Shown here: piece after piece, positions 13,275-63,221 of the stretch | How the letters are laid out: every line of letters begins with the position of its first letter | Numbering within the stretch: the stretch's first letter is position 1 | Assembly (NCBI GenBank): GCA_949318235.1 | Contig: OX439132.1 | Coordinates: forward strand, 20,910,217 to 20,974,216 | Source: Ecdyonurus torrentis | Taxonomy: Eukaryota; Arthropoda; Insecta; Ephemeroptera; Heptageniidae | Length of the DNA stretch: 64,000 bases | Reading direction: 5' to 3' | Made by a program: the position numbers and the translations under genes | The notes under the pieces: generated by a model | Told to the model about the DNA's origin: nothing | The model's database searches: none | What the model saw: only the letters and a program-made list of their open reading frames with translations

Positions 13275-16135
13275 TTGTCTATTCTTGTATGGAATGTGGA
13301 GGGTGTTAAAAATCTCTTTAAAAAGTTACCAGATGTTAATGTGTTTAAAAACCTAGATATTCTTGTTTTAACTGAAACATTTTCAAAAGTTAGCTTTGAG
13401 TTAAGAGATTTTTATTCAACACATTCGTTTGCCATACAGGGATTGGGAGGGCGCCCTTCTGGAGGTATTTCATGTTTCTCCAGTCCCAAACTATAGGCCC
13501 TGTTATCAACAGTTTTCCTAATGCTAGATATTTAATTGTAAATTTTAATTCTGTATGTATTATCTGTTTTTATCTTAATCCTTCTCTATCGCAAATTGAT
13601 GTTCACGAGACGGTTCTTGAAGCCTTTTCACAAGCTTTAAAAAGTAACACTCCAATTATAATGGCAGGTGATTTTAATTGTAGAATGGATGCCAATGACA
13701 AGGACAAGGGTCAGTCTCTTATTGATGTCATGTCAGAGATAAATTTTATTTTGTGTAATAATCCTATGGACAAAACCTATATCTGTCACAACGGTTCCAG
13801 CACGATTGATTTATTATTCATAGATCCCTCAAAATTCAAACTACTCTCTCATTACTTTCCTAGATTTGCTGGTATTCACCTGAGAAAACACCAACCACTA
13901 ATTTTTAATGTAAAATTCCTGCACGAGGTGCAATCAAATAAGTGGTACACAACTCCATTATCTAATATAACAAATAAAATAGATCTGGAAAAACTAATGT
14001 ACCTGATCCAAAATAATTTTAAACTTTTAAATGACCTCTTCATAAAAGGGGAAATTGATAAAATATATGAACAAATTCAATATTTGATATTAAACTCTGC
14101 TTTACCTAAGAAATATTCTAAGCGGCAAGCAAAACCGTGGTTTGATCAGGAAGCTTTTCTTCTCCGGAAATACGTGTTACACCTTTTATTTAAATTAAGA
14201 GCTTGTAGATTTAAAGATAAGCAACTTCTTACTCATTTCAATTTAGTTAAAAAAGAATATATAAAATTACTCAATGTAAAACGGGATCTATTTCAAATTA
14301 AATATGAAGAAAATTTAGTTTCAATTGCGGAAAGCGTTCCATATACATATCTTAAAAAAGACAAAATTCTAAATGTCCAATGTCCCATTCCTGTTCATGA
14401 TTGGGAGAATCACTTTAAAGAGATATTAAACTGTAAGAATCTTTCATCAGAAGATTCATTGAATTTAATTAGTTTAATAGATAATTATTCATCGGATATA
14501 ATTTTTAAACCTATCTCTACCTTGGAATTAAATTCTGTTATTAACTCCATGAAAAATAATAAGGCAGCTGGCCCGGATTGTATTTCAAAGGAACATATTG
14601 CTGTCTGGGGTTTGCTTTCGGGCAACTGTTTAGCTAACTTTTTTAATCTATGTATTGAAAATAAGAAATTACCTCAAGTCTGGAAACAGTCTCGTTTAAA
14701 AGTTTTGTATAAAGGTAAAGGTAATATTCTGTCCACTAACTCCTATAGAGGAATTGCAAACTGTTACATCATGTTCAAAATGTTTGATAAAGTTATTTGT
14801 AAGAGAGTTTTTGATTGCACTAAGGATCTTATCCCAGATATACAGTTTGGGTTTATGCCAGGCAGATCAACAATTCAAGCCGTTAAATATTTGCATGCTC
14901 AGATTTTAAAAGATGTAGCTGAACCAAAAAGTTGTACATTCGTGCTATTCATTGACTTTCTAAAAGCATTCGACCTGGTTGATAGAAAGTTATTATTAAG
15001 TAAACTTATCGAAACTAAAAAGCTTCCGAAAGAAATACTTGTTGCTCTGGCCCTGCTACTGGAAGTCAATTTTGTAACTGTAAATGATGGTTTACTTCTC
15101 TCGGACCCTATCTTGCAAAGCAATGGAGTTTTGCAGGGGGGCCCGAGTAGTCCTCTTTTGTACAACCTTTTAACCTATGATATACTAACTATAATCGAGG
15201 AAATTGTTAATTTAATAGCAGATGATCCTGAGATCTTTCTCAGTATCTATGCTGATGATTTGGCTATTATATGTAAAAACTTAGAAAAATTACAGAAAAT
15301 TTTGGATAAATTAGTTAAATGGGCCTCTCTAAATGGGTTAAAAATAAATGCGAATAAAACAAAAATAATGAAGTTTAAATATGCAAGTGGTGGCCGCCCA
15401 AAAACAAACCCTCCTCCGGAAAATATCTACTGTAATGGAACTAAATTGGAGTTTGTAAGCTCATTTAAATATCTAGGTATTACCTTACAGCAATCAGGCA
15501 AGACATTTGCAGCTCATGTCAAAGATAGAAGCAAAAGTGCCATCACAGCATCCTTCACCATATCAAACGTACATTTGCTATCTCTGAAAACGGCCATAAA
15601 ACTTTTTCACCTGAAAATATCACCTGTAGCATCTTATGGAATAGAGATTTTCTGGTCATATCTAACCATCACAGACTTCAACTTATTAGAGTCTGTAAAA
15701 TCTCGTTTTCTTAAGAGAGCAATGTGCCTCTCAAAATATACAAAATCTAGACTAGTTTATGAACTTTCAGGAGAGGAGTTTTATGTACGGGAGCTGAGAT
15801 TAAAATTTAATTTGCCAGAAACTGAAAATTTTATTAAGTTTGTTCAAATTAGAGAAAATAAAACCGATGATATTAATCTATCATTTTATAATACACCAGC
15901 TTTAAAAAATGATACATGGAAAAACTCAAATCAGAGGAATCGTAATATTATCACCCGCTACGCGGCACACGGTTTTCATCACAAAATTTGTAACACTAAA
16001 GAATATCATATTTGTAATAATAATTGTATCTGCTCCTTGTGTGGGATGTCATGTGAACAGTATCATCTCCTCACATGTTCTAGGAGACATTTAAGTATGG
16101 CCTACTATGCCGAGGGCACTGATCAACATGTATAA
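13275..16135 (+). pseudogene. LINE ORF2: AP endonuclease and reverse transcriptase, one frameshift
   Basis: Encodes the retrotransposition enzyme. The first segment (13275-13496) holds the endonuclease start (LVWNVEG, LTETF). The remainder is in another frame from 13472, so one frameshift falls in the endonuclease around 13472-13496. Downstream are IIMAGDFNCR and STIDLLFI (endonuclease), then the reverse transcriptase: KAAGPDCI, GFMPGRSTIQAV, FLKAFDLVDR, LQGGPSSPLLYNLL and the catalytic YADD. The C-terminus has a Cys/His cluster (CSLCGMSCEQYHLLTC). The stop is at 16133-16135. There is no ATG at the 13275 end, so translation may rely on ORF1 read-on or reinitiation. Apart from the shift the frame is intact for 887 residues, which indicates a young copy. 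Confidence 0.93.
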
Positions 16136-16955: not shown

Positions 16956-17140
16956 TGGTCTGTTAATAATTTATTTCATATTACTTTAAAATTACTCAAC
17001 TTAATAGAAAAGTGTATAATGGAATTTTACACTTTTCTGTTCTAAAATATTGATTTTTTGAAATCAACCCAATAATAATTAAGTAATCCCAGACAACAAG
17101 TTATTAATGTTATAGAATTTCTATTATCTTAAATTTTGTA

Positions 17141-17422
17141 TATCGATGCTATTGCGGCTAAACCACGCTTCTACTTTTAGCGTGTTTCTTTACTTTCACG
17201 GATCTACGTTTATCGCGATAGACATAAAAACACGTATCTACATTTATCGCGACAGCAGGTAAAAACATTTCTACATCTGTTTTCCTATGTAGAAATGTTT
17301 TTACCTGTTGTCGCGATAAATGTAGATACGCGTTTTTATGGCTATCGCGATAAACGTAGATGCGTGAAAGTAAGGAAACACGCTAAAAGTAGAAGCGTGG
17401 TTTAGCCGCAACACCATCGATA
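17141..17422. mobile_element. 282-bp near-perfect palindrome
   Basis: Arms begin TATCGATG and contain GCGGCTAAACCACGCTTCTA and its complement. The centre is around 17283. It may be flanked by TA. It lies just downstream of the 3' end of NOP58. Confidence 0.8.
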
Positions 17423-17528
17423 TTATGTTTGACCGTTATCATTTACACTCAAGCCAAGAAAAGTATGTAAAGCTACTATTAATTTAAAAGAAAAAAATGC
17501 AGGCAGTAATTATTTTTAGTAATAGCAG

Positions 17529-17536
17529 CCTTTATT
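17529..17536 (-). terminator. NOP58 polyadenylation signal
   Basis: AATAAA on the minus strand about 50 bp past the NOP58 stop codon (17585-17587). A second AATAAA overlaps the stop codon itself (GAATAAATG). Confidence 0.6.
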
Positions 17537-17584
17537 CTTTTCATTGCTTGATAGGAGAGATTGTATATTAGAGAAAATACACAT

Positions 17585-18829
17585 TTATTCATCTGTCTTC
17601 TTCTTCTTCTTTTTCTTCTTTTTCTCACTTGTTGGTTCCTCAGGCTCTGGTTGCTCTGCCTTCTTCTTCTTCTTCTTGCCCTCTTGTGGCTCCTCAGCAG
17701 CCTCCTCCGAGATGCTGTGTTTCTTCTTTTTTTTCTTCTTAGGAGTTTCTGGAACACAAAGAAAATTGTGTAAGCAAATATTACATAAAACATTATTAAC
17801 TAGCATGTATTACAGTATAGAGGCAGTTAGGTATTTTAAACTCTCATTTAATTAAAATAAAGTCTGTTTAATACTCCTATGAACTGAAGGTTTACATGTG
17901 TACGGGTAAGGTATCTTTTAAAGAACAACATATCAACATATTGAAGAACAAATTAGCACAGCACAGGCTTGCAATGAGTACAAAATAACAATTCAATGTT
18001 CTAGGTTTGGTCAGCAGCTTTAGTCGGCACTTACATTTTTTTTTTTTAATTTATACAATATGTTTAGCAATAACAAAGTTTTAAAATGACTGCTTATGTT
18101 TACTCAAAATGCGGAAAAGGAAGTGCCGGAAAAGGAAACCACGTGACGGTAAAAGTGGGAGGAAGCTCAGGCGTAGCTTGCTGCTGGCACCAACTTTTCT
18201 CCCACTTTTACCATCACGTGGTTTCCTTTTCCGGTCACTTCCTTTTCCACATTTGGAGTAAACATAAACAGTCATTGACAGTCATTAAAAAAAATAGCGG
18301 GGGGAGTTGTCAACTTCAAACGTTGACCCCAGGCAAATTGCCAAGGGGACATTTTTTTTTGTCAACTTTTTTCTCCAGCCAATCATGCAACTACAATAAT
18401 GCTATCCATAATAGTTTTTTTTTCTACAAATAGGCAAAGGTGTGTGTGATTTTTTTTTTATTATTATTATTATTTTTTTTTTTTAATATACCTAACGTCC
18501 TTTACATATCAATGTTGTAGCAAACTATAGGGTGGTTTCACTCATGTTAAAGTCGATGTCATAAGTGAGTACCAAATAACATTGGCCAGTATAAGAAAAT
18601 GGCACATTTTGCCAGTTAAAAAATACTTCGCAATTTTTTAGAGAGCATTGATGCTGCTATAACAGGTTAATTTAGTACCTCAAGAATGCAAGAAAAATAA
18701 TAATGACCAAAAAATAGCTAATTTACCAAAGAAAATAGCCAAAAACTATGTTTGTCCTATGCTGAGCAATGTTATTCATTGCTCAAGAAGAGCATCAAAA
18801 AGCACTCAGAATGACGTAATGCGCACACA

Positions 18830-18871
<42 letters not shown>

Positions 18872-21800
18872 CTTGATTAGCAAAATGTGTACGTATTGTA
18901 GATGGTGCTCGACTTACACATTTTACTTCCCATGATAAAAACAAGATACAAATATTGCTTACCATGACACAAAACGAGATACACATACTGTTTGCTACAA
19001 CAATGATTTATAATTAAATTTACTTGTAACATAAAACAAAAATTGTTTATATTAAGAGAAAAAAAAAAAACTTATTCTTGGTTAACATTGCCCGATTCCT
19101 CATAACAGGAAAAAAAGTGCAATTGTATCATCAATACAATTTAATACACAGTAGCTTAAAAAAATGCATAATGTAATGTATCAATTTAAGGAAAAAACCA
19201 TCGCGGTTAGGATCAATGATAAAGAAAAGGATAGAAAAACCAGCAAGGGCCTTACCACAGTAGAAGTTCTATGGAGAGGTCGAGGTCTTGCATGGCACAG
19301 TATAATGTTATAAAAGTTTCTTTATAACTTGAGAGCTTTCGTCATATGATAATGACATTATCAATCAAAAGAGAAAATTACTTGAGCACATCACTGAGCA
19401 GTGTCTTGTCTTGTACTCTAGTACTCTAGTACAAGACAAGACACTGCTCAGTGATGTGCTCAAGTAATTTTCTCTTTTGATTGATAATGTCATTATCATA
19501 TGACGAAAGCTCTCAAGTTATAAAGAAACTTTTATAACATTATACCGTGCCATGCAAGACCTCGACCTCTCCATAGAACTTCTACTGTGGTAAGGCCCTT
19601 GCTGGTTTTTCTATCCTTTTCTTTAATGTAATGTATATGCAACAAATGAAATAATAATTATAAATATGCAATATAGCCATAACTAATTATTTAAAATAGT
19701 AATTATTATACATATAATATTTGTTATAAATATAGAGCGCAAAAATAGTCGATCATTTTGACAAAATAGTCGACTATATAGTCGATGATTGCTGGTGCAA
19801 ATAGTCGACAAATAGTCGATTTTATACGAAAAAGTCGAAAAAAGTCGATTTTTTATACATAAATTTACATAAAGAATGATAAAAAAAAGATTTTGTGAGT
19901 AAAAAATAATTTAATTTAATGTTGAAACAGTAATTTTAGTATCTAAATACTCAAATAGGCTGAGCGTGTCCCTATCTTGTATGTAGTATTTTGTTAACGC
20001 GATAAAAACCATGAACAATTTTTTAAAAGGGTATGGGACTTCAGCACTATTACAAAATAGTATCAAATTTACCTAGGACTCATCAGGCAAGGCACAGCAG
20101 AGAGCTCTGTACAGCTAGAGATGATTCATACACAACATCTACTAGCTGACTGAGCTGGGGAAGTAAGTGGCAGTGCGCTTTTATACACAGTGCCCTCTCA
20201 GCTGCACGCGCTGATTCGTTGGTACAAGAGAGCGCGCGAAAACTGGCTTGCTATTTGAAATTGTAAATAAATTACTATTTTTTTTTCAAAAAGTATCGAA
20301 TACCAATTGTCGGATTTATGTATCGATATATCGATACATATCGCCTCAAAAAAGTATCGATAATATCGATACTATCGGATATATCGATATATATTGCCGA
20401 TTTCTAGTAGAAATCTCCTTAAAGGAATAGACCGGAGAAAAACATAAGCATTTATATCACAAAACACTTGATGGGATTTACAAAAATAACGTTAGTTTGT
20501 CCCAAAACCCAAGAGTAGCCCCGTAGCAGAGATTAGAAAATTCGATTTATGCAACCTGCATAACATTTTCATACTAATTTTTGCATGTTTCTGACGTCAT
20601 AAACATGAATTTTCACACAAATTGCATACTTTACAGTTGTTTCACGCTCTCTCGTGTGGCTACATTATCATTCTGGTAAAAATTGTCATCAATTTTGAAG
20701 ATCCCATTTCGTGTTTATTCATTAAAAAGCACATGATGTTTTATGCGGTCTATGGCTTTAAAAACTTAAAAAAGGTGAGAAATAGTCGACAAATAGTCGA
20801 TTTCTCGTGAAATAGTCGCTGAGCTCGAAATAGTCGAAAATAGTCGATTTTTTTATTGGTTTAAAATGCACCATATGTTGAGATCGGTGGAGATATGAAA
20901 TAATACTAGCAATAGTCGACATAATGGCAATAGTCGAAAAACTATTTTTGCGCTCTCTAGTTATAAATAATAGTTATACAAATAATCTAATAACTATAGC
21001 CAATACTAAGATATGTGTATATAATTAGGAATCAAACATTCCGTCAAGTGGGGTGACTGACCAAATTTTCAAAAAATTATTTACTCCCGAACTAAAAGCT
21101 CATAGAAACAAGGAAAATAATTATCTGTGCACTAACTTTCAGTTTTTGTTTCACTGTGGTTATGGAGTAAATAATTTTAGAACATTTACTTGTTAGTCAA
21201 AGTCACCCCACTAAAAGGTTCAACTTGATGTACGATATGTTTAATTTTGTTGTTTTTGATTACTTGAAAATGAAAACACAATATTATGTGTCAAAAATAA
21301 CAAGATAAATAAAAATGAACATACGATTGAATCTTAAGTACTGTACTAATAATTCAAAAGTAACAAAATTTTCAAATGTTAACCTATTTAATGGATGTGT
21401 CCTTACCTAATTAACATGACAACATCAGATATGATATAACTATTGATTACCAGGCCAAAAGTAAATAGAGATAATAATGGATTCTGCTTTGAAAATGTCT
21501 AAGATTTTTTGCTTCACATCTGGCCAATGCAATGCATCAAGTCCACAACCAATCATAGGCATGGCTAGTTCTCTCACTTCCAGTTGTTGACACAAAGCTC
21601 TTAACTCCAGTAGACTGCTTTCCAGGCTCTCTAGTGTGGGATTTCCATAAGATACTTTCTTACTAACAAGGTAGAAAATGTAACGCTCATCTGATTGAAT
21701 AACTGCAACTTGACCTGTCACTTTGCCCTGACTTAGAAGGAAACTTTGATTTCCAAATTTTTGTTTAAAGTCTACAGCTATGCCTCGGCTCATCCAGAAA

Positions 21801-22903
21801 TCCTCAGCTACACAATGAGCTAGTGAGACATGCTTAGGTGCAGAGAACAGACTACCACACAACTCATGATATTGTAGACACCCACCTTCCTCAACTTCCA
21901 CAGGTTCTGCCTTCAATGATGACTTTTTCTTCTTTTTCTTTTTCTCTTGGCCTTCACCTATCACAGAAAAAATATATATATACATATTACTCGACATATT
22001 TTCTTTATACCTACACTACTATAGCAATAAGTAACTGTTTTATTTATGGTTTAAAACTCTAAATATATCACTGATAAATAAAAATAATATTTTATCATCA
22101 TTTGTTTTTTGTGGTATTTCTGATTGATGGTAAAACAATTACTTATAATTCACACAACATTATTATTACCTTCTTGCTCCTCATCTTGTGGTTCCATCTT
22201 GATCTTCTTTTTGGGTGTTTTAACTAAAATTAGAAGAAAAATAGATAAGAATTACAAGTATTAAAACATAAAAAGGTAGCGCAATTTTTAAGCATTGACA
22301 GTTTAAACTGCCTAATTCAGTGAATTCAAAACATAGCAGCAAAACTTGACAATTAAATTTTCTTCTAACATAAAGAAATTATTTATAGGGATATAATAAT
22401 AAAAAATTAATTAATAATAGCAAATAGTAGATAGGGATTAGAAAATTAATCAGTTAATTAATTTTCGTTGGATTGAAAGTTAATAAAATACAAAGATTAT
22501 CTATGTAATTCATATAGTTAATTGGGATTTGGGATCATTTGTTCTAGCATAGGCATTTTTTTTAAAGACGTTAAAAGGATAGGGATGTGTCTATAAAATA
22601 CAGTATAGGTCACATTCTCAGATGGGTAAGTCTGGTACTGTTTGATGTAGCGTGAGAACATGAGTTACTGTACTAAATATATTTTATTGACACAATATCC
22701 CTATCTTTTTAACATCTATTTAAGAAAGAAGGGGGAAAAAATCTAGTGGTCATCTATGCTAGAACATATTATTCCATGCCCAAATTAGCTATATTAATAA
22801 TACCTTCGCATTTTATAAAATTTTAATCTTAAGTGCTCCAATCCCTCCTCTACTACCCAACTACTACTTTTAACAACCACAATAGTTTCCTCCTCATTTC
22901 AAT

Positions 22904-22938
<35 letters not shown>

Positions 22939-23471
22939 ACAACAATGTAAATTTTAAATTATGGATAGGCATTAATTAGAACATAATGAGAATTATATTT
23001 TCAATGAAAGTGGAACTAACCCTGTTGTTCAAAACTGTCATCAATTTCTTCTACAAGTGGTCTCTTCATCTTGCCACCAGGAATGGTCGAGTCCATTTCA
23101 GTCGGATACTGCTTCACCTCACTAAGGTAAAACAAACAAAAATCAGAAAATACTTCAGGATTCCAAAATACAGGTTAATTATTTTAGCACGCCATAGAGA
23201 AAACAAATTAGGACAAAGAGAGACTGACCTCCTTGAGTGGTACTTGTCAAATTTGGCCTTCACTTTGCCAGTGCCAGAAATTCTCCTGTTGCCTCCCTCC
23301 TCTAGCTGTCGTATCCTCAAAGTGAGAGTTGCTTTGTGGTCTGTACCTAGCTCTGCAGTTCCATCATCTCCAAGGGCATCTACACGGGTGGCTAGAGCTG
23401 CCTTAGCAGCCAGCATACGTGACACCTAACACAAAACAAATTACAAATAAATGACGTGCGTGTGTGTGATG

Positions 23472-23529
<58 letters not shown>

Positions 23530-24519
23530 TTATATATAGATTAGAAAATAGCAGGACAAAGAGCATGTTGAATTAAAATTAATATAATGCAAAGATTTTT
23601 TTTTTTTAATTTATACAGTAAATTGGGACTTGGCATCATAGGTTTAGCGTAGACAGGTACTAATTTATCATTTATTTAAATAGAAGTTACAAGAATAGGG
23701 ATAATGTGCAAAACAAAACAAAAAAGTAGCTCACATTTTCACACTTTATCAAAGACACACCATTATAAAAATTTATAAAAGAGCCCCAGACTGGAAATTT
23801 GATTCCACTTCCTACAATCTACAAATAATAGAATCTTTGGATATCTTTAATCTAAAATATCATCACATTTTTAGTAAATGTTAAGAAATAAATGAAACAA
23901 GCTTGTAATAGCATAGGATATTTCAGCATATAAATTTATGCAATACAAGCACAAAACTGCATACCTTTCCTTTGTTCTTAGTACTTGCAGATCCAACCAG
24001 ATGTGCATGGTAGATGAGACCATACTTAGGAGTGTCTCTATGTGTTTTGAGAGCCCTAAACAATGCTTTTTCTGCACCTAGGATTTGCACAGTGGAGGCA
24101 GGGTGCTTGGCTAAGTTTATTAGGGAACCTAGCAATCATACCAAAAAATTGTAATTAATAAACAAAAAAAAGTGGATGCTAACGTAAGTGGAGCAGGAAA
24201 TATTGTTATTTACACTCTCCTGGCTGGAGTGAAAAAGAACAAAACAACTTAATATACACGATGAGGAAAAACAAAAACAATTTTAGGGGGTAATTTTATT
24301 TTATATTCTAGAAGAGAACGTTGACCTGAATCGACGAACATGTGAATTTCTTAGTTTTGAGTTTATTAAGTATTTTACTTGGTGTCACAGGTGGCAAATT
24401 AGGCATGTGGGAATAGGAAAAGTTACCGACCGTGACGTCACATCATGACTTCCAAAAATTAATTAAAAATACTTAAAGAATTAAAAAAATTAGACATTTG
24501 CATATCTATTCTAGATTAT

Positions 24520-24564
<45 letters not shown>

Positions 24565-24983
24565 AAAAAACTTTTAGCTTTCCTTATAGCACCAGGAAGA
24601 AAATATTAAGATTTCCATAAGTTTAACATTTCAAAATATATTGTCTTGATTGCAATGTTCCACTCACCTGCATGAGAGATGAGACGGGCACCAATTAACT
24701 CTCCCACAAGTACAGTAAGGTTGGGGGCAATGGCCATCATACGAGAGTTAAGATACTCATAAAGATTTGTCCGATACTCAGAAATATCCAAGACCTGTTA
24801 CACAAAAAAAATGAAGAAAATTTTTGAACTAAAAAATTATCAATAAACATGTTACTAATTAATGCACTAATGAACATTATAATATTATATATTGTTGATA
24901 ACAATAAACACAAGGTATGTTTTTAAAGTAGCTATAAAATAATACTTTCAGAACTTTGGGGGGGGGGGGGGGAGCAGTATATG

Positions 24984-25052
<69 letters not shown>

Positions 25053-26810
25053 CATTGCAGAGCTGCTGAATGTTCGTTATGTCTTCTTCAGAGATTTCAG
25101 TTCCCATGGAGATTTCTGCAGCTTCCTTTACTTTTTCTTCAATTTCTTCCGGAATAATCTCGGATAAATCTGTCTCGGACATCTTCTCACGCGTACCTGC
25201 AGCCAAATAATTTCAACTCATGACTTGTACTCAGAAATGTATTTTCAAAATATAAGTAATTTTTTGATACACTCAAGCGGTACTAAAAATTTTGCTTCTC
25301 ACTTAGACACTAAAATTTACAGTTCAGAGAGATGCTTACCAACGAGTTTAATAATCTTGATGAAAGCTATGTTGTCAACAACAATCTTGCCAAGTTCTGG
25401 GAAATGCCAACCATACCATTCTCTACATCTCATAACATAATTATTGATTTCCTTGTCAAGATCATCTAACAAGCAGATTGCCTGGATAACCATTGTATCT
25501 ACTTTGTCAGGACTGAACTTGAGCTTGTAGCGGGACAAACTGTGAACAGAAAGATAAATAAGTTGTTGTTGTTGTTTTTTTGTTGTTTTTTTTTTACTGA
25601 AAGTGTTGACAGAATGTGACAGTTAAAATTAAGACTATAAATATTTTCAAGGGGGTATTATAATGACTAAGAACAAAAATATCAACATGAACATTATACT
25701 GTACCTGTGAGCTAAACCTAATGCCATGGCAGTCATCTCTTTTTGTGGTAACCCTGCCAGAAGTCCATCTATCTGAGAGCGAATACATCTCATCAGCTCT
25801 TGTACTGCAGAGCTTGACATGCAGTTGACATCCATTTTCTCTTTGATGGCACCTCCCAACTTGGCATCGGAAACAAGTAACTTTTCATGGGCTTCCTTGA
25901 TCTCTAATTTTTTCAGCATTTTCTTGAGTACTTTAGAAATTTTTCCCTCAACTGCAGCTGTAGTAGCAGCAAGGGCTTCTGTAGTATCAGTAAATTTTTC
26001 AAAATGCTTCAGTTTTAATCTGAAAGAGTTAGTATTTTAATTAAACAATAGTAAATATACATTATGTAATAATATATATCTGTTGATACAAGTTAATGGC
26101 AGGCCATTAATCGGCAGAAATGGATTTTTAATTTTTACGCAATATGCGAGACCCCCTTCCCCATTTTACAAAACACATCCCGATCTGCCGATAACTAGTG
26201 TAACTATACATACATACACAAAAAATTATGACAGGGGCAAGTTAACTCTTTAATTGGGCCTATCCAATAGAGGCAAAAGTATTTTTATTAATAATACATA
26301 CATAATCTTATTATCATATGTATTTATATGTACATTACTAATATAATCTCTTGATATAAACAAAGAGAAAGTAAAATACATGCAAGATACACAGTAGCAA
26401 AAGAACATAAAACACATGACATACATGCTATACTAGATAAGTAATATGTATTTATCACATATACATACATACATACCAGTATGCATATGTACCGGTATAG
26501 ACACATAAACACTTACAGTTTGCTAGCTTTCTGAGGTGTCTCAAAATCTTTGAAAAGATCATCTGTAGCTTGAAGCTTTTTCTCGTCTAATAGCTGAAAA
26601 TAAGACAAATATCATGACAAATCGATAATCACCGATGTTGCATGCAATGCAACTTTTATTCAAATGATATCATTACTTACACATCGCATGAACACATTTT
26701 GAGGCAACATGCGTTAATCAGTTTTAGATTTTATACACAAAAATAAATTATAATTCATCACTTACCTTGAATATAGCATAGCCCGCAGGCGTTTCAAATA
26801 AGACCAACAT
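17585..26810 (-). CDS. NOP58: Nucleolar protein 58, box C/D snoRNP core protein
   Basis: Core protein of box C/D snoRNPs that guide rRNA 2'-O-methylation; acts in the nucleolus with fibrillarin, NOP56 and 15.5K. Coding exons: 26810-26766, 26593-26517, 26019-25705, 25539-25340, 25196-25051, 24794-24668, 24128-23965, 23425-23229, 23121-23021, 22223-22170 and 17748-17585. All junctions are GT-AG with matching phases. The product is 529 residues, the length I recall for human NOP58. It starts [15 protein letters not shown], has the coiled-coil and [11 protein letters not shown] segments, then the NOP domain ([46 protein letters not shown]) and ends in a typical lysine/glutamate tail. An additional exon with a macro domain (21957-21440) lies between the last two exons in the same phase. 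Introns hold many transposon insertions. It shares a short promoter region with UBE2G2. Confidence 0.97.
18083..18275. mobile_element. Foldback of about 190 bp
   Basis: Inverted arms ATGACTG, TTATGTTTACTC and GGAAACCACGTGA and their complements. Located in the last NOP58 intron. Confidence 0.75.
18833..18860. repeat. Poly-T tract followed by (TG)n
   Basis: Homopolymer of roughly 28 T next to TGTGTGTGTG. Confidence 0.9.
19182..19623 (+). mobile_element. Polar hairpin element, family P copy 1, with 13-bp direct repeats
   Basis: Long palindrome (arms about 200 bp, containing AAAGAAAAGGATAGAA and AACCAGCAAGGGCCTTACC) preceded on one side only by a unique stretch of about 36 bp (CAATTTAAGGAAAAAACC ... 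GGTTAGGATCAAT). Flanked by TAATGTAATGTAT at 19169-19181 and 19624-19636. The same polarity occurs in copy 2 (30179-30421). Located in the last NOP58 intron. Confidence 0.85.
19731..20959. mobile_element. 1,229-bp hAT-like element with AGTCGA subterminal arrays
   Basis: Inverted ends TATAGAGCGCAAAAATAG and CTATTTTTGCGCTCTCTA (one mismatch) are flanked by the 8-bp direct repeat GTTATAAA (19723-19730 and 20960-20967). Each end carries at least six copies of AGTCGA. The centre has an ATCGAT-rich block (about 20290-20400). There is no transposase. The left end is shared with the fragment at 60012-60245. Confidence 0.92.
21036..21208. mobile_element. Foldback element of about 175 bp
   Basis: Left arm AGTGGGGTGACT plus ATTATTTACTCC, right arm with their complements. 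In the NOP58 intron just downstream of the macro-domain exon. Confidence 0.65.
21440..21957 (-). CDS. NOP58 alternative exon encoding a TARG1/OARD1-like macro domain
   Basis: Macro domains of this class bind ADP-ribose and, in TARG1/OARD1, remove ADP-ribose from acidic side chains. The acceptor (TGATAG, exon from 21957) is phase 1, exactly matching the end of the NOP58 exon at 22170. The exon opens with GEGQE and a run of seven lysines like the NOP58 tail, then the macro fold: [38 protein letters not shown] and [13 protein letters not shown]. The catalytic Lys and Asp of TARG1 (human K84, D125) are both present, 41 residues apart as in human. The usual GDLF is GSLF and GAG is SRG, so binding may differ. 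The first Met after the acceptor lies inside the domain, which argues against a separate gene. The frame ends at TAG 21442-21440. A donor-like GTAATC at 21450 would instead make it a 507-nt in-frame cassette joined to the exon at 17748. Confidence 0.82.
22530..22790. mobile_element. Foldback element with a related half-copy at about 23630-23780
   Basis: Left arm TTCTAGCATAGGCA and AAGGATAGGGATGTGT, right arm with the complement (ACACAATATCCCTATC, TATGCTAGAACA). A diverged half containing GGTTTAGCGTAGACAGG and AGAATAGGGATAATGTG lies in the next intron upstream. Both are in NOP58 introns. Confidence 0.55.
23474..23524. repeat. (AT)n microsatellite
   Basis: About 25 AT repeats in a NOP58 intron. 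Confidence 0.95.
24258..24520. mobile_element. Foldback element, family F copy 2
   Basis: Starts CGATGAGGAAAAAC, then GGGGTAATTTTATTTTATAT, TCTAGAAGAGAACG, GTGAATTTCTTAGTTTTGAG and GACCGTGACGTCA, then the inverse blocks. Located in the NOP58 intron between 24668 and 24128. A poly-A tract follows at about 24521-24555. Confidence 0.65.
24983..25049. repeat. (AT)n microsatellite abutting a splice donor
   Basis: The donor of the NOP58 exon ending at 25051 reads GTATATATAT, directly continuous with about 33 AT repeats; a 16-G run (24957-24972) lies on the far side. Confidence 0.95.
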
Positions 26811-27017
26811 TATAGATAGCTCTATTTATGTCAAATTAATAGTAAAATCATAAAGTATTATAACAAAGTCTGATTCTACCACGCCGACCACGCGGTGAAT
26901 TTAGTGTACTGTACGGTGTACGCAGCGCGCAGCGGTACGCATTAGCGACACGATGGGAATGCGGAGAATAATGGAACTAACAATGATAACAAACAATTGA
27001 CAATCGAAGAAATAAAG
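26811..27017. promoter_or_regulatory. Bidirectional promoter of NOP58 and UBE2G2
   Basis: 207 bp separate the two divergent start codons. The stretch 26878-26965 is CpG-rich (GCAGCGCGCAGCGGTACGC) within otherwise AT-rich DNA. The UBE2G2 start codon lies in AAGATGGCA, which resembles a YY1-type site. Both genes are housekeeping, so a shared core promoter is likely. No TATA box was recognised. Confidence 0.75.
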
Positions 27018-30000
27018 ATGGCAGGTTCGGCACTGCGACGTTTGATGGCTGAATACAAACGTAAGAATATTGTTAAAAATTCACCATTTACATATCTCAT
27101 AAGACGTATTTGTGAAACAAGATATAATTTTCTTTTTATGTGGCAAAAATTTCAACTGGCAAGTAAAAGGTTTTTCTTAAATCGGAGCCTATATTTCACC
27201 TGGGTCTGAACTTACACGGCATGCATTTTTTTTTTATCTGTATCCATATTCATAGTTTTTATACATACATACACATGATAAACATATATTATGGTGTATT
27301 ATATTTATGAATATTTAAACACCTTTTTTAATGTTAATTTTTGCACTTTTCAGAGTTAACCTTGAATCCACCAGAAGGAATTATTGCTGGTCCAATAAAT
27401 GAAGAAAACTTTTTTGAGTGGGAAGCATTAATTACGTGAGTTTTCTTCAAGATTTCTGCCTGTATCTTAAAAATTTTAATGCTATTTACCGGTGGTGACG
27501 TGTAAACAATCTGATACGCGCGGGAAAACAAGGTTGGAAAGGAAACATTATTCTGTAACTAGCATTGCGGTAAAATGCTTTTAGCGATTTTTAAGAAACT
27601 ATACTGCAGACTGCAGATAAAAAAAAAAAAAAAAAGTAATGATGGTGTTGTTCGTAAACCCTGTTTTCGTGCACCAAAAAATGCGCATTTCATTTGAATA
27701 ACCAAAAGTGATCGTCATTTTAGGAGCAGAGAACAGGGTTTACGTACAGCATTAATAAAAACGTGTATGTACACTAAACATAATTTGAGCTAAAAAAAAA
27801 CAACAAACAAACAAACAAAAAACTAGTAAGAAGCATTTGAAATAACAGCCTGTATCTTATATGTGAAACTCTTATTACAGTTCCCGATAAATACTGTATG
27901 GATTAGCAAATTTCTAATTTGTATGCTTAACTATAGCAAGGAACTATCTTGTTTTATAGTAATGCCTATAGTGGCTAATACCGTGTTCATAATGGGCCGA
28001 AATTTCGGGTCCGGTGACGGATGACTCTTCTGTCGTTTCCAATGAAAATTTGACGACCGTCTCCAATGCTCCAAAATCTGTCGGACGACGGATCCGACGG
28101 ATATAAAAATAAGTGCTGCCATCTATTTTTATGGCGCGTTTCAATTGAAACTATAAAATCTCGTTTATTTAAAACTAAAAGACAATTTTATTTGACCTGG
28201 TTAAAATTATAATAGAGTCGTGATACTTGCAGGGTCTAGAGAAAAAAACTTGCGCATTTAATTTCCGACGCTTTTACTACCTGATTTTGTGCATTTCTTG
28301 CTTATTGAAGGGTTTGAATTTCCCTTTATTTGAGATTTGAAGGTACAGTAGGTACTTCTAATAAATGCCTAATTTCGTGGTGTAAGTAAATAAATTAGCA
28401 CCTGTAGTGGTGAAAAAAAAAAAAAAAAGAAAGAAAAGAGAGGAAGCAGAGTAAGGTCCTAAATTTTTAATTTTTACCCTTGAGAAATATTTCGGGGGTG
28501 TGCAACCACCGAGAGTTCTCTTATTTTGACGCAACCAATGATTTTACCCTGGTAACTTATTCATCTGCAAATGACAATAGTGACCACTAAAAATGTGAAA
28601 ATTAACCCTTGTGCCACCCTTGTAAATCAACATCTCCGACTTTGAAGCAAACATCGATGTTATTGTGGTAACTTGACCTAAAAATACAATGGTGATCAAG
28701 AAAATGTTGAATATTAGCCTCAATGGCAAATTAGGTGTGGTTGTATTTTGTATTTATTTAGTATTTAACTATTAAAATTTTAGAAACTATTTTAAATTGT
28801 CAGGGAATGTAGGTTAACATTTTCTGTGGTCAGATTTTCTGGGTATCAGATTATACCTCGGCAACGTCGGCTAGCGGACGAATTGGCCGCCGAGATATCA
28901 ATGATTTCTCGATATGCGCCGCATCCAAATATGGGCTGTACCAGCTTTGCTCCCCGTACCCCCCATCAAAGTGTGGACCGTCTCTTGGCTATAGAACCAT
29001 AGCGACCCATGCCATCCCACGTACGCCATTGCTTGCATCCAAATTGAAAAACAAAAATTGTTTTCCAGGTGTGGCACCCTTTTAAATTCTGCCGGAATCA
29101 AGTTGAACGTTTTCGGTGGTCACCATCATTATTTTTCCGGTCAAGTTACCCCGATAATATTGTTGGTTTCCTCAAAATCGGAGAACTTGAATTTACAGGG
29201 GTGGTACCCTTAAATTCGGCAGAGGTCTAGTTGAACATTTTTGGTGGTCACCATCATCTTTTTCAGGTCAAGATACCACGATAATATGGTTGGTTGACTC
29301 AAAATCGGAGAACTTGAATTTACAGGGGTGACACCCCTAAATTCTTCGGGGGTCAAGTTGAACCCTGGTCAAGGGGTCAAGTGGTCGCCATCATCTTTTT
29401 CAGGTCAAGTTACCACGGTGACATCGTTGGTTGTCTCAAAATCGGAGACCTTTAATTAAAAGAGGTGGCACCCCTAAATTAAAGGGTCAATTTAAACATT
29501 TATGTTGGTCAAAACATAAATTGAAACAAAAACCCTAGAAACTCTGATAAAAAAATCAGAAAAATTCCCATCCGAAAAGACAGGCCCCCCTTCCGTCGTC
29601 CTTCAACGTCGGAGAGCTTGACGGATGGCGGACGTCGGAAGGGTCTTCAGTCGTCCGACAAGTTCGGAAGTGTCGGACCATTGGAGACAACTTTCGGTCC
29701 ATTGTGAACATGGTGTAAGACTCTCTATTACATTATTCCATACAGATGGGCAATGTCATCATGTTATTATGTCTAGAAAATAGAAATTTCAATAGAAATG
29801 AGCAAAAAAATAAAAATAAACAATTAACTGTGCGGGTACTGGTACTTTACGATAAACTTTCTCTTAACTTGTATTGATGAATAATTGGCTATGCGATATG
29901 TATGATCATAAAAAGATTTGATAGTAAAACACATATAGATTAGGAAAAATTAAGGAATATAAGATAGTATGAGCTTACGCTAACAGGGACGCCATCGTAG

Positions 30001-33000
30001 AGAAAATATTCTAATCTGAACAGAAATTTCTTTTCAGCTTGGTTTAGAATATTTTCTTTACCATGGCGTCCCTGTTAGTGTAAGCGCATACTATCTCCCA
30101 ATCCCCAATTTTTCCTAATCTGTCTAGGTATGTGCTTTAGTATCAAATCTTTTCATTGTCATACATTTCTCTTAATTTCAATATTAAAGAAAAGGATAGA
30201 ATAACCAGCAAGGGCCTTACCACGGTAGAAGTTCTATGGAGAGGTCGAAGTCTCGCATGGCACAGTGTTTTGTTATAAAATGAACTTTTTTGTAACAAAA
30301 CACTGTGCCATGCGAGACTTCGACCTCTCCATAGAACTTCTACTGTGGTAAGGCCCTTGCTGGTTATTCTATCCTTTTCTTTAATATTGATCCTAACCGC
30401 GATGGTTTTTTCCTTAAATTGATTTCTCTTAATTTGTGTATTCAATATATATTTTAGAGGTCCAGAAGGAACATGCTTTGAGGGTGGAGTATTCCCAGCT
30501 AAACTCGTCTTTCCTCCTGACTACCCGCTAAGTCCACCCAAGATGCAGTTCACCTGTGAAATGTTTCACCCAAATAGTAAGTGTGGGATATTCTCATAGA
30601 GAGCATGATATGTATTACTGTATTCATATCGTATAGATTAGGTAGCTGGAAACTCATGTTTAATTTGTATTCTGGCTTGGACAGTCCTCTTCTAACTGAT
30701 TCACATTCAGTTGGCCTTAAATTGTTGTTTAATAAAACTATGGGCAAATTAAGTACTGGTAAGAATAAAAATTCTTTATTGAACCAGGCAGTTCATAGTA
30801 ACATAGTGTTACAACAAGCGTTGGTTTTGTCAACTATTTACAAAATTATAATAAAAGATAGGTCTATTATTTATATAAAATAGGCCTATATATACACACA
30901 TTGTCGATAAAACATTCCAAAAACAAAGAATAGGATATACTGAGTGAAAAGAAAATTAAAATAACAAATATATTAAATAGAGAAGTGAAAATAATATATT
31001 ACTGCAATTAATATTGTTCAATCAGTATAAAATTGTAAATTAAACGTGTAGTATGCACTGGCATATCAATATACATTAATCAATATTTGAACTGGGATCA
31101 TAAAATTTAGCTGAAGTGTAATATATATACTGTATATATTTATTCCTGCTATAGGAGATGGACTACTGTACCATCTACTGTGTATAGGCCTATATATTTA
31201 TCATTACGGATAGTAAACGGCCACTAGGATTTTTGTGTTTTTCAACTTTACATCGTAATATCACCACAGTACAAAGTTTTAAAAAAATAGACCAACATTC
31301 TCGTAATGTATAAAATTAATATCGGACAGTAAATGTGTCAAGTTTTAAAATTTTCCTGCTCATGGTAGACTCGCTAATGATTAATTAGTCATCAGAAACA
31401 CCGATTTGGCACTTCATTTTTTTAAATCATGGACTTACCGATAGTGATAAAACTTCAAACTTGATGGACAGAGTAAACAAATGTTACTTATGAATGTAAC
31501 GTAGTTAAAATATTTCGCAAACCACCCCCTTTGCAAATAAATGGCAAAAAGTGTAAATTTAGATCCGCTTAAGTTACAACGATAAATTTTAGTTTTTGGG
31601 TAGAAACTAGCTTAAGTAATAGAACTCAGATAAAAAATGTATATAATTATTTTTTTTAGCGATGTTGCAAATTTTTTTTAACCTGGGAGAGATGAATGCT
31701 CAGAGTTTTTAGCCTGATGAAGGCAACCTTCAGTACGCCAAATTAATAAAAAATCAAATTTTCCTAAAAAATAAAAAAAATTGACATTTTTTATTTGAAT
31801 TCTTTTACTTAAACTACTTCCTACCCACAAAGTAATTTTCATCCTTGTAACTTAAGCGGATCTAAATTTACCCTTTTTGCCATTTATTTGCAAAGGGGGT
31901 GGTTTGCGAAATATTTTAACTACGTTACATTCATAAGTAACATTTGTTTACCCTGTCCATCAAGTATGAAACTTTTATCACTATCGGTTATAGAGACAAC
32001 TCACAGCTTAAGTCCATGATTTAAAAAAATAAAGTGCCAAATCGGTGTTTCTGATGACTAATTAATCATTAGCGAGTCTACCATGAGCAGGACAATTTTG
32101 AAACTTGACACATTTACTGTCCGATATTTATACATTACGAGAATGTTGGTCTAATTTTTTTTTAAAACTTTGCACTGTGGTGATATTACAATGTAAAGTT
32201 GAAAAATACAAAAATCCTGGTGGCCGTTTACTATCCGTAATGATCGATATTATATTTTTTATTATGTATAGGTCAATTGGTCTATAAATTGAATACAGTT
32301 TTAGATGTATGTTGTACACACATTGTGTTTAATAAATAAAATATTATTATAGGTATGTATTATTAAAATTATAATTAAATTATGCAGATTCAGATTATGT
32401 TTTGCTTATGATAGATTACTTGTACTTGTAAAATATATTATTTCAAAACATTTTCTTATTGTATCTTTATTGTGGTCACTGGTTTTGTTGTAGTATATGC
32501 TGATGGTCGAGTGTGTATCTCAATCTTGCACGCACCAGGTGATGATCCTATGGGATATGAATCAAGTGCGGAACGATGGAGTCCTGTGCAGAGTGTAGAG
32601 AAAATTTTACTCTCTGTCGTCAGCATGTTAGCAGGTTAGTTAAAAAAAAAAAAAGCATACATATTGTCGATTTGTTTAGAAAAAATACATGTAAAATTTC
32701 TGTAGTATTTAACTAAAACTATTTGTCAATTTGTGGTTGTGTATGAAATCATTTGACATGCATTTCCTTTTCTAGTTTAATATTAATAATAATAAGATGG
32801 AGAAGAAAACCCCATTAATCAAATATAATTAGCTTCTTTAAGTGCATTTTCTTTAGGTCAATCCCACCCTTAAATTTATTTATTTTATTGACTAATAAAA
32901 GAACAACTATTTTGAGGCTGACTATAAGTGATTTTGCTTACATCCACTTCCGTTCCTACATACTGTGCATCCGTAGTAAGTTGAAACGGAAGCAGATGTG

Positions 33001-34641: not shown

Positions 34642-63221
<28,580 letters not shown>

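Follow-up and report, generated by a model that had tools for sequence, protein, structure and literature searches.

An in-frame TARG1-like macro domain behind a lysine-rich tail exon of NOP58 in Ecdyonurus torrentis and its possible expression by alternative 5′ splice-site choice

We analyzed a 64,000-nucleotide (nt) stretch of the genome of Ecdyonurus torrentis (contig OX439132.1, positions 20,910,217 to 20,974,216; hereafter the window, whose own numbering is used throughout), in which the minus strand from 26810 to 17585 encodes NOP58, a core protein of box C/D small nucleolar ribonucleoproteins (snoRNPs), with a TARG1-like macro domain lying in frame behind one of its exons. These particles belong to the apparatus for ribosomal RNA modification, and TARG1 is an enzyme that takes ADP-ribose off its targets. 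All features are on this strand unless stated otherwise. The NOP58 gene comprises 12 exons with GT-AG borders throughout and a continuous reading frame. Exons 1 to 5 (26810-26766, 26593-26517, 26019-25705, 25539-25340 and 25196-25051) and exons 6 to 9 (24794-24668, 24128-23965, 23425-23229 and 23121-23021) are followed by exon 10 (22223-22170), which ends in phase 1 at the donor AAG/GTAATA. In its short form, exon 11 (21957-21886) measures 72 nt, is in phase 1 at both ends, lies between the acceptor tgtgatag and the donor AAG/GTGGGT, and codes for a lysine run and an acidic spacer. The last exon (17748-17585), entered in phase 1 from the acceptor tgttccag, encodes a lysine-rich tail closed by the stop codon TAA at 17587-17585, and the AATAAA at 17536-17531 is its likely poly(A) signal. 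The lysine-rich C-terminal tail of NOP58 is thus coded by exons 11 and 12.

With the short exon 11 the product is 553 residues long. The Pfam domains NOP5NT (expectation value (E) 4.3e-20) and Nop (E 3.1e-86) were scored on the fused reading described below, and exons 1 to 10 are common to both forms. The best match in the PDB is human NOP58, at 685 bits compared to 314 bits for human NOP56. Intron 10 is only 212 nt long and intron 11 reaches 4.1 kb. Positions 17300 to 27200 contain no Ns. An Rfam scan of 17000-28000 returned no match at the gathering score, hence no known intronic small nucleolar RNA (snoRNA) was found.

The macro domain stands at the head of intron 11. If exon 11 is read past its donor at 21885, the frame stays open from 21885 to 21440, through the TARG1/OARD1-like domain to a TAG stop at 21442-21440, and gives a protein of 647 residues. 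Assuming 31% GC, the probability that 171 codons stay open by chance is about 1e-6. The domain aligns with residues 10-143 of 149 of human TARG1 (PDB 4j5q; E 6.9e-36, 126.6 bits), the best PDB chain not named TARG1, C6orf130 or OARD1 reaches only 48 bits, and the Pfam Macro profile scores 23.2 bits (E 6.7e-5), narrowly over its cut-off of 22. The first in-frame Met of the exon is at position 55, already within the macro fold, and we rejected it as a start codon: initiation there would yield a fold lacking its first strand as well as the first conserved block. Since no in-frame ATG precedes the fold, the exon depends on a preceding exon or on a start codon upstream of it, and exon 10 fits its phase. 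Much of this had been anticipated by the original prediction, made from the letters of the window. The proper acceptor at 21957, phase 1 at 22170, 21957 and 17748, the opening lysine run resembling the NOP58 tail, the lack of a Met between acceptor and fold, the TARG1-like character of the domain with its two catalytic residues, and the model sizes of 647 and 698 residues were all reproduced here.

Two residues, which we take to be Lys84 and residue 125 in human numbering, presumably form the catalytic pair. In an alignment of 119 of the 122 retrieved proteins (three were left out for length), the lysine is present here and in 119 of 119 relatives, and the aspartate of the dyad is present here and in all 118 relatives having a residue at that position. 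The TARG1 dyad has been described as Lys84 and Glu125 (PMC7050489), and the aligned proteins show Asp at the second place. From sequence, the domain may be regarded as enzyme-like, a putative ADP-ribosyl hydrolase.

The relatives were gathered by a one-query protein search, which returned 6 matches, and by an alignment-based search, from which the best 120 of 5080 matches were taken. Scans of genome and viral contigs gave 1 and 2 distant loci, respectively, and a contig scan with P0003 as query gave no loci. Two unannotated contig proteins, P0001 (177 residues as predicted) and P0002 (189 residues), are 66% and 65% identical to the window sequence in the domain, over 99% of the query. Both carry, in a single frame, a lysine run, an acidic spacer ending in EVEEG and then the macro domain, and by a text pattern they are the only 2 of the 122 retrieved proteins with a lysine-rich stretch before the fold. 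Across the three pairs formed by these sequences, the likeness of the segment preceding the macro domain was matched by 1, 0 and 0 of 5000 shuffles, and that of the spacer by itself by 4, 0 and 7 of 5000. At the protein level, the glycine holding the start of the proximal donor is kept in all three. A tree of 45 of the 122 proteins plus the window sequence unites the window domain with P0001 and P0002 (support 99/82) within a larger clade (100/98) that includes P0003, a contig protein with a sister macro domain 56% identical to ours. P0003 differs in beginning with a Met at the first strand, without a lysine run; it is either standalone or was cut by the gene caller. Because lysine run, spacer and macro domain share a single frame in P0001 and P0002, chance, assembly error and decay are disfavoured as explanations of the arrangement. 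The lysine run is plausibly an ordinary part of the NOP58 tail, and its in-frame extension would then be the macro domain.

Three donors could end exon 11. We scored them with an approximate generic matrix and with a matrix built on the first 10 donors of NOP58 itself. The proximal donor, GTGGGT at 21885-21880, falls within Gly-Gly codons of the fusion frame and scores 9.6 on the generic matrix (third among the 11 donors of the gene) and 6.59 on the own-gene matrix (fifth of 11). The cassette donor, CTG/GTAATC at 21450-21445, obtains 5.59 and 5.95, its generic score exceeding those of three of the 11 NOP58 donors (4.97, 5.5 and 5.56). A candidate distal donor, TAG/GTAAGG at 21406-21401, lies 33 nt after the fusion stop and beats the cassette donor on both matrices (9.84 generic, 9.24 own-gene); generic scores so high occur 0.062 times per kb on this strand over the whole window. 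An ATTAAA at 21392-21387 could act as the poly(A) signal of a fusion messenger RNA (mRNA) that ends differently, but it is a weak candidate, being one of 15 AATAAA or ATTAAA motifs between 21440 and 17450.

We consider it somewhat probable that a choice between 5′ splice sites at exon 11 yields either NOP58 or a NOP58-TARG1 fusion. Ending exon 11 at the proximal donor would produce the mRNA for the ordinary 553-residue NOP58. If this donor were skipped, exon 11 would continue in frame through the TARG1-like domain to the stop at 21440, and most simply the distal donor at 21406 would then be spliced to the normal last exon at 17748, polyadenylation inside the intron being the alternative. The predicted 647-residue product would be a NOP58 whose last tail segment is exchanged for an ADP-ribosyl-hydrolase-like domain. 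A stop codon close upstream of the last exon junction spares an mRNA from nonsense-mediated decay, and because the fusion stop would stand 33 nt before that junction, the fused mRNA is expected to escape it. We infer both the use of these splice sites and the existence of the fused protein from the genomic sequence. The fused form could serve to place an activity that removes ADP-ribose at box C/D snoRNPs. A broader proposal, to which we give somewhat less than an even chance, is that an animal lineage built a TARG1-type eraser into NOP58 by regulated 5′ splice-site choice, giving some of its snoRNPs a built-in eraser; this may be the only TARG1 of the lineage, and it would suggest that TARG1 acts at snoRNPs in other animals too.

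Such a function would fit what published sources report for nucleoli. Human TARG1 accumulates in nucleoli engaged in transcription, its binding partners include ribosomal, rRNA-processing and ribosome-biogenesis proteins (PMC5928194; also PMC7050489), and its neighbours are enriched for RNA metabolism and ribosome biogenesis (PMC7237415). The 2018 study describes evidence for a role of TARG1 in ribosome biogenesis as missing (PMC5928194). NOP58 goes unmentioned in the main text of PMC5928194 and PMC7237415. A review notes the proposal that PARP1 is stimulated by snoRNAs in the nucleolus, with ADP-ribosylation of DDX21 as the consequence (PMC8162545). Were a box C/D snoRNP protein to carry an eraser, this eraser would act where snoRNAs are proposed to stimulate PARP1. 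If the fusion is real, it would mark the box C/D snoRNP as a physical site at which an eraser is wanted, and the part of TARG1 in ribosome biogenesis would become directly testable.

Several observations weigh against a fused NOP58 made in this way. Proximal and cassette donors differ little on the own-gene matrix (6.59 and 5.95), a GT inside the extension at 21714, unrelated to either, reaches 6.74, and intron 11 has other strong donors further down (18962, 18034 and 19255); moreover, the distal donor was singled out after the fact and the generic matrix is only approximate. In each of the three lysine-run/macro frames an in-frame start codon occurs upstream, outside the exon-like part, so that a separate mRNA is conceivable, and what would link P0001 and P0002 to NOP58 is their shared exon 11 segment and nothing else. 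The aspartate of the GDLF motif, which we take to contact adenine, is Ser in the NOP58 macro domain, and ligand binding may therefore be altered. The same position is occupied by Cys, Cys and Ser in P0001, P0002 and P0003, respectively, whereas 113 of the 118 relatives having a residue there carry D or N, with Ser in the two that are left, P0065 and P0121. Inhibition of PARP displaced DDX21 but not human NOP58 from nucleoli, in a report that cites the same snoRNA/PARP1 work (PMC11172406); because human NOP58 was left in place, NOP58 itself need not be a target. Finally, a search with the macro part among database proteins of about 356 to 1132 residues revealed no full-length fusion among 351 candidates, its reach being limited to relatives that share short exact words. 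This is a weak negative because the one-query search found 6 matches where the alignment-based search gave 5080.

The main rival is a nested, independent TARG1 gene, transcribed into its own mRNA from intron 10 or from another first exon, that takes over the lysine-rich exon to lengthen its N-terminus, perhaps for nucleolar targeting, so that NOP58 never carries the domain. The frame is indeed open upstream of the acceptor and reaches in-frame ATGs in intron 10 (open reading frame 22015-21440), and P0001 and P0002 are predicted with a Met 10 and 8 residues, respectively, before the lysine run. However, judged by eye, the stretches upstream of the exon-like part, from Met to lysine run, differ among the three sequences, while the exon part is alike; intron 10 offers just 212 nt; and proper splice sites connect the exon in phase with exon 10 of NOP58. 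We hold such a nested gene to be unlikely, though with a real share of the probability.

Alternatively, the domain could be contained in a 507-nt in-frame cassette exon (21957-21451) spliced to 17748, which would give 698 residues and keep the NOP58 tail behind the macro domain. This was the splicing put forward in the original prediction, which let the exon end there or at the stop at 21440 and overlooked the donor AAG/GTGGGT at 21885 and that at 21406. Its phases do fit and its frame stays open, its own-gene score of 5.95 is near the 6.59 of the proximal donor, and in P0001 the sequence Pro-Gly-Lys would allow a donor in this position. On the other hand, the generic score of 5.59 contrasts with 9.6 and 9.84 for the neighbouring donors, P0002 has Pro-Asp at the donor place, where GT cannot be encoded, and the three frames end 6, 8 and 20 residues past the last conserved Tyr. 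The fusion frame itself is upheld, being kept also in P0001 and P0002, but the cassette, whose donor is outscored by that at 21406, appears an improbable way of splicing it.

Two further explanations carry little weight. Intron-retention noise over a functionless relic of a TARG1 insertion would fit the position of the macro domain, which follows a donor and opens a 4.1-kb intron containing a palindromic repeat; yet with 171 open codons, both dyad positions kept, about 65% identity to two relatives and the junction retained in them, a relic is very improbable. Nothing was found in favour of an assembly chimera or a misread exon, the least probable of all, given the same lysine-run/macro frame in two other contigs, the lack of Ns and the fitting phases. 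A chance open frame, a decaying insertion and a chimera are all unlikely in view of the frame length, the kept dyad and the junction found in two relatives.

We found no description of a NOP58-TARG1 fusion in the papers or database proteins covered by our searches. NOP58 together with "macro domain" returned no paper in a collection covering few subscription papers and no preprints, and "macrodomain" returned only a paper on archaeal chromosomes, judging by its title. NOP58 together with OARD1 gave papers with one or two mentions each, under titles on other subjects, and a looser literature search for the fusion gave no title on it among the matches listed.

Other TARG1-like domains were seen in the window and among the retrieved proteins. 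At the edge of the window, 3-227 on the plus strand codes for the C-terminal half of another TARG1-like macro domain, which is only distantly related. Pfam gave no match on this fragment, and among the 122 retrieved proteins it is closest to P0094 (48% over 71 residues), which has an integrase H2C2 zinc-binding domain beside Macro; the fragment is perhaps a retroelement-borne macro domain. A retroelement origin was considered for the NOP58 macro domain and rejected, as the fragment shares just 32% with it over 71 residues and no recent common origin is seen. P0007 and P0008, the latter from Biomphalaria pfeifferi, have tandem TARG1-like domains in one protein, the second copy of P0008 lacking the GLD motif by eye. 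Within NOP58 intron 11, 19220-19625 is a palindrome whose 203-nt arms are 99% complementary, without a spacer, in the manner of a foldback or miniature inverted-repeat transposable element, and by eye a stretch near 30146-30520 resembles it. Further away, 13400-16132 (plus strand) holds a 911-residue open frame with endonuclease and reverse transcriptase domains, by its make-up a non-long-terminal-repeat retrotransposon. On the minus strand, an open frame of 2615 codons (49413-57257) has no Pfam match at E 0.01; by eye, it could belong as a single exon to a large lipoprotein-like gene, with further pieces at about 41000-63000.

Compared with known systems, the protein encoded here resembles the NOP58 core protein of box C/D snoRNPs in having NOP5NT, Nop and a lysine-rich tail, and would depart from the usual NOP58 where reading past exon 11 swaps the last tail segment for a macro domain. 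With TARG1/OARD1 (C6orf130), of the ALC1-like type, the macro domain has in common a nearly whole fold and the dyad positions. Unlike TARG1/OARD1, it lacks its own Met ahead of the fold, is attached to a lysine-rich NOP58 tail exon and has Ser in place of the GDLF Asp. ALC1-like macrodomains have been described as minimal, without N- or C-terminal extensions (PMC7050489), in contrast to the in-frame lysine-rich extension present here and in two relatives.

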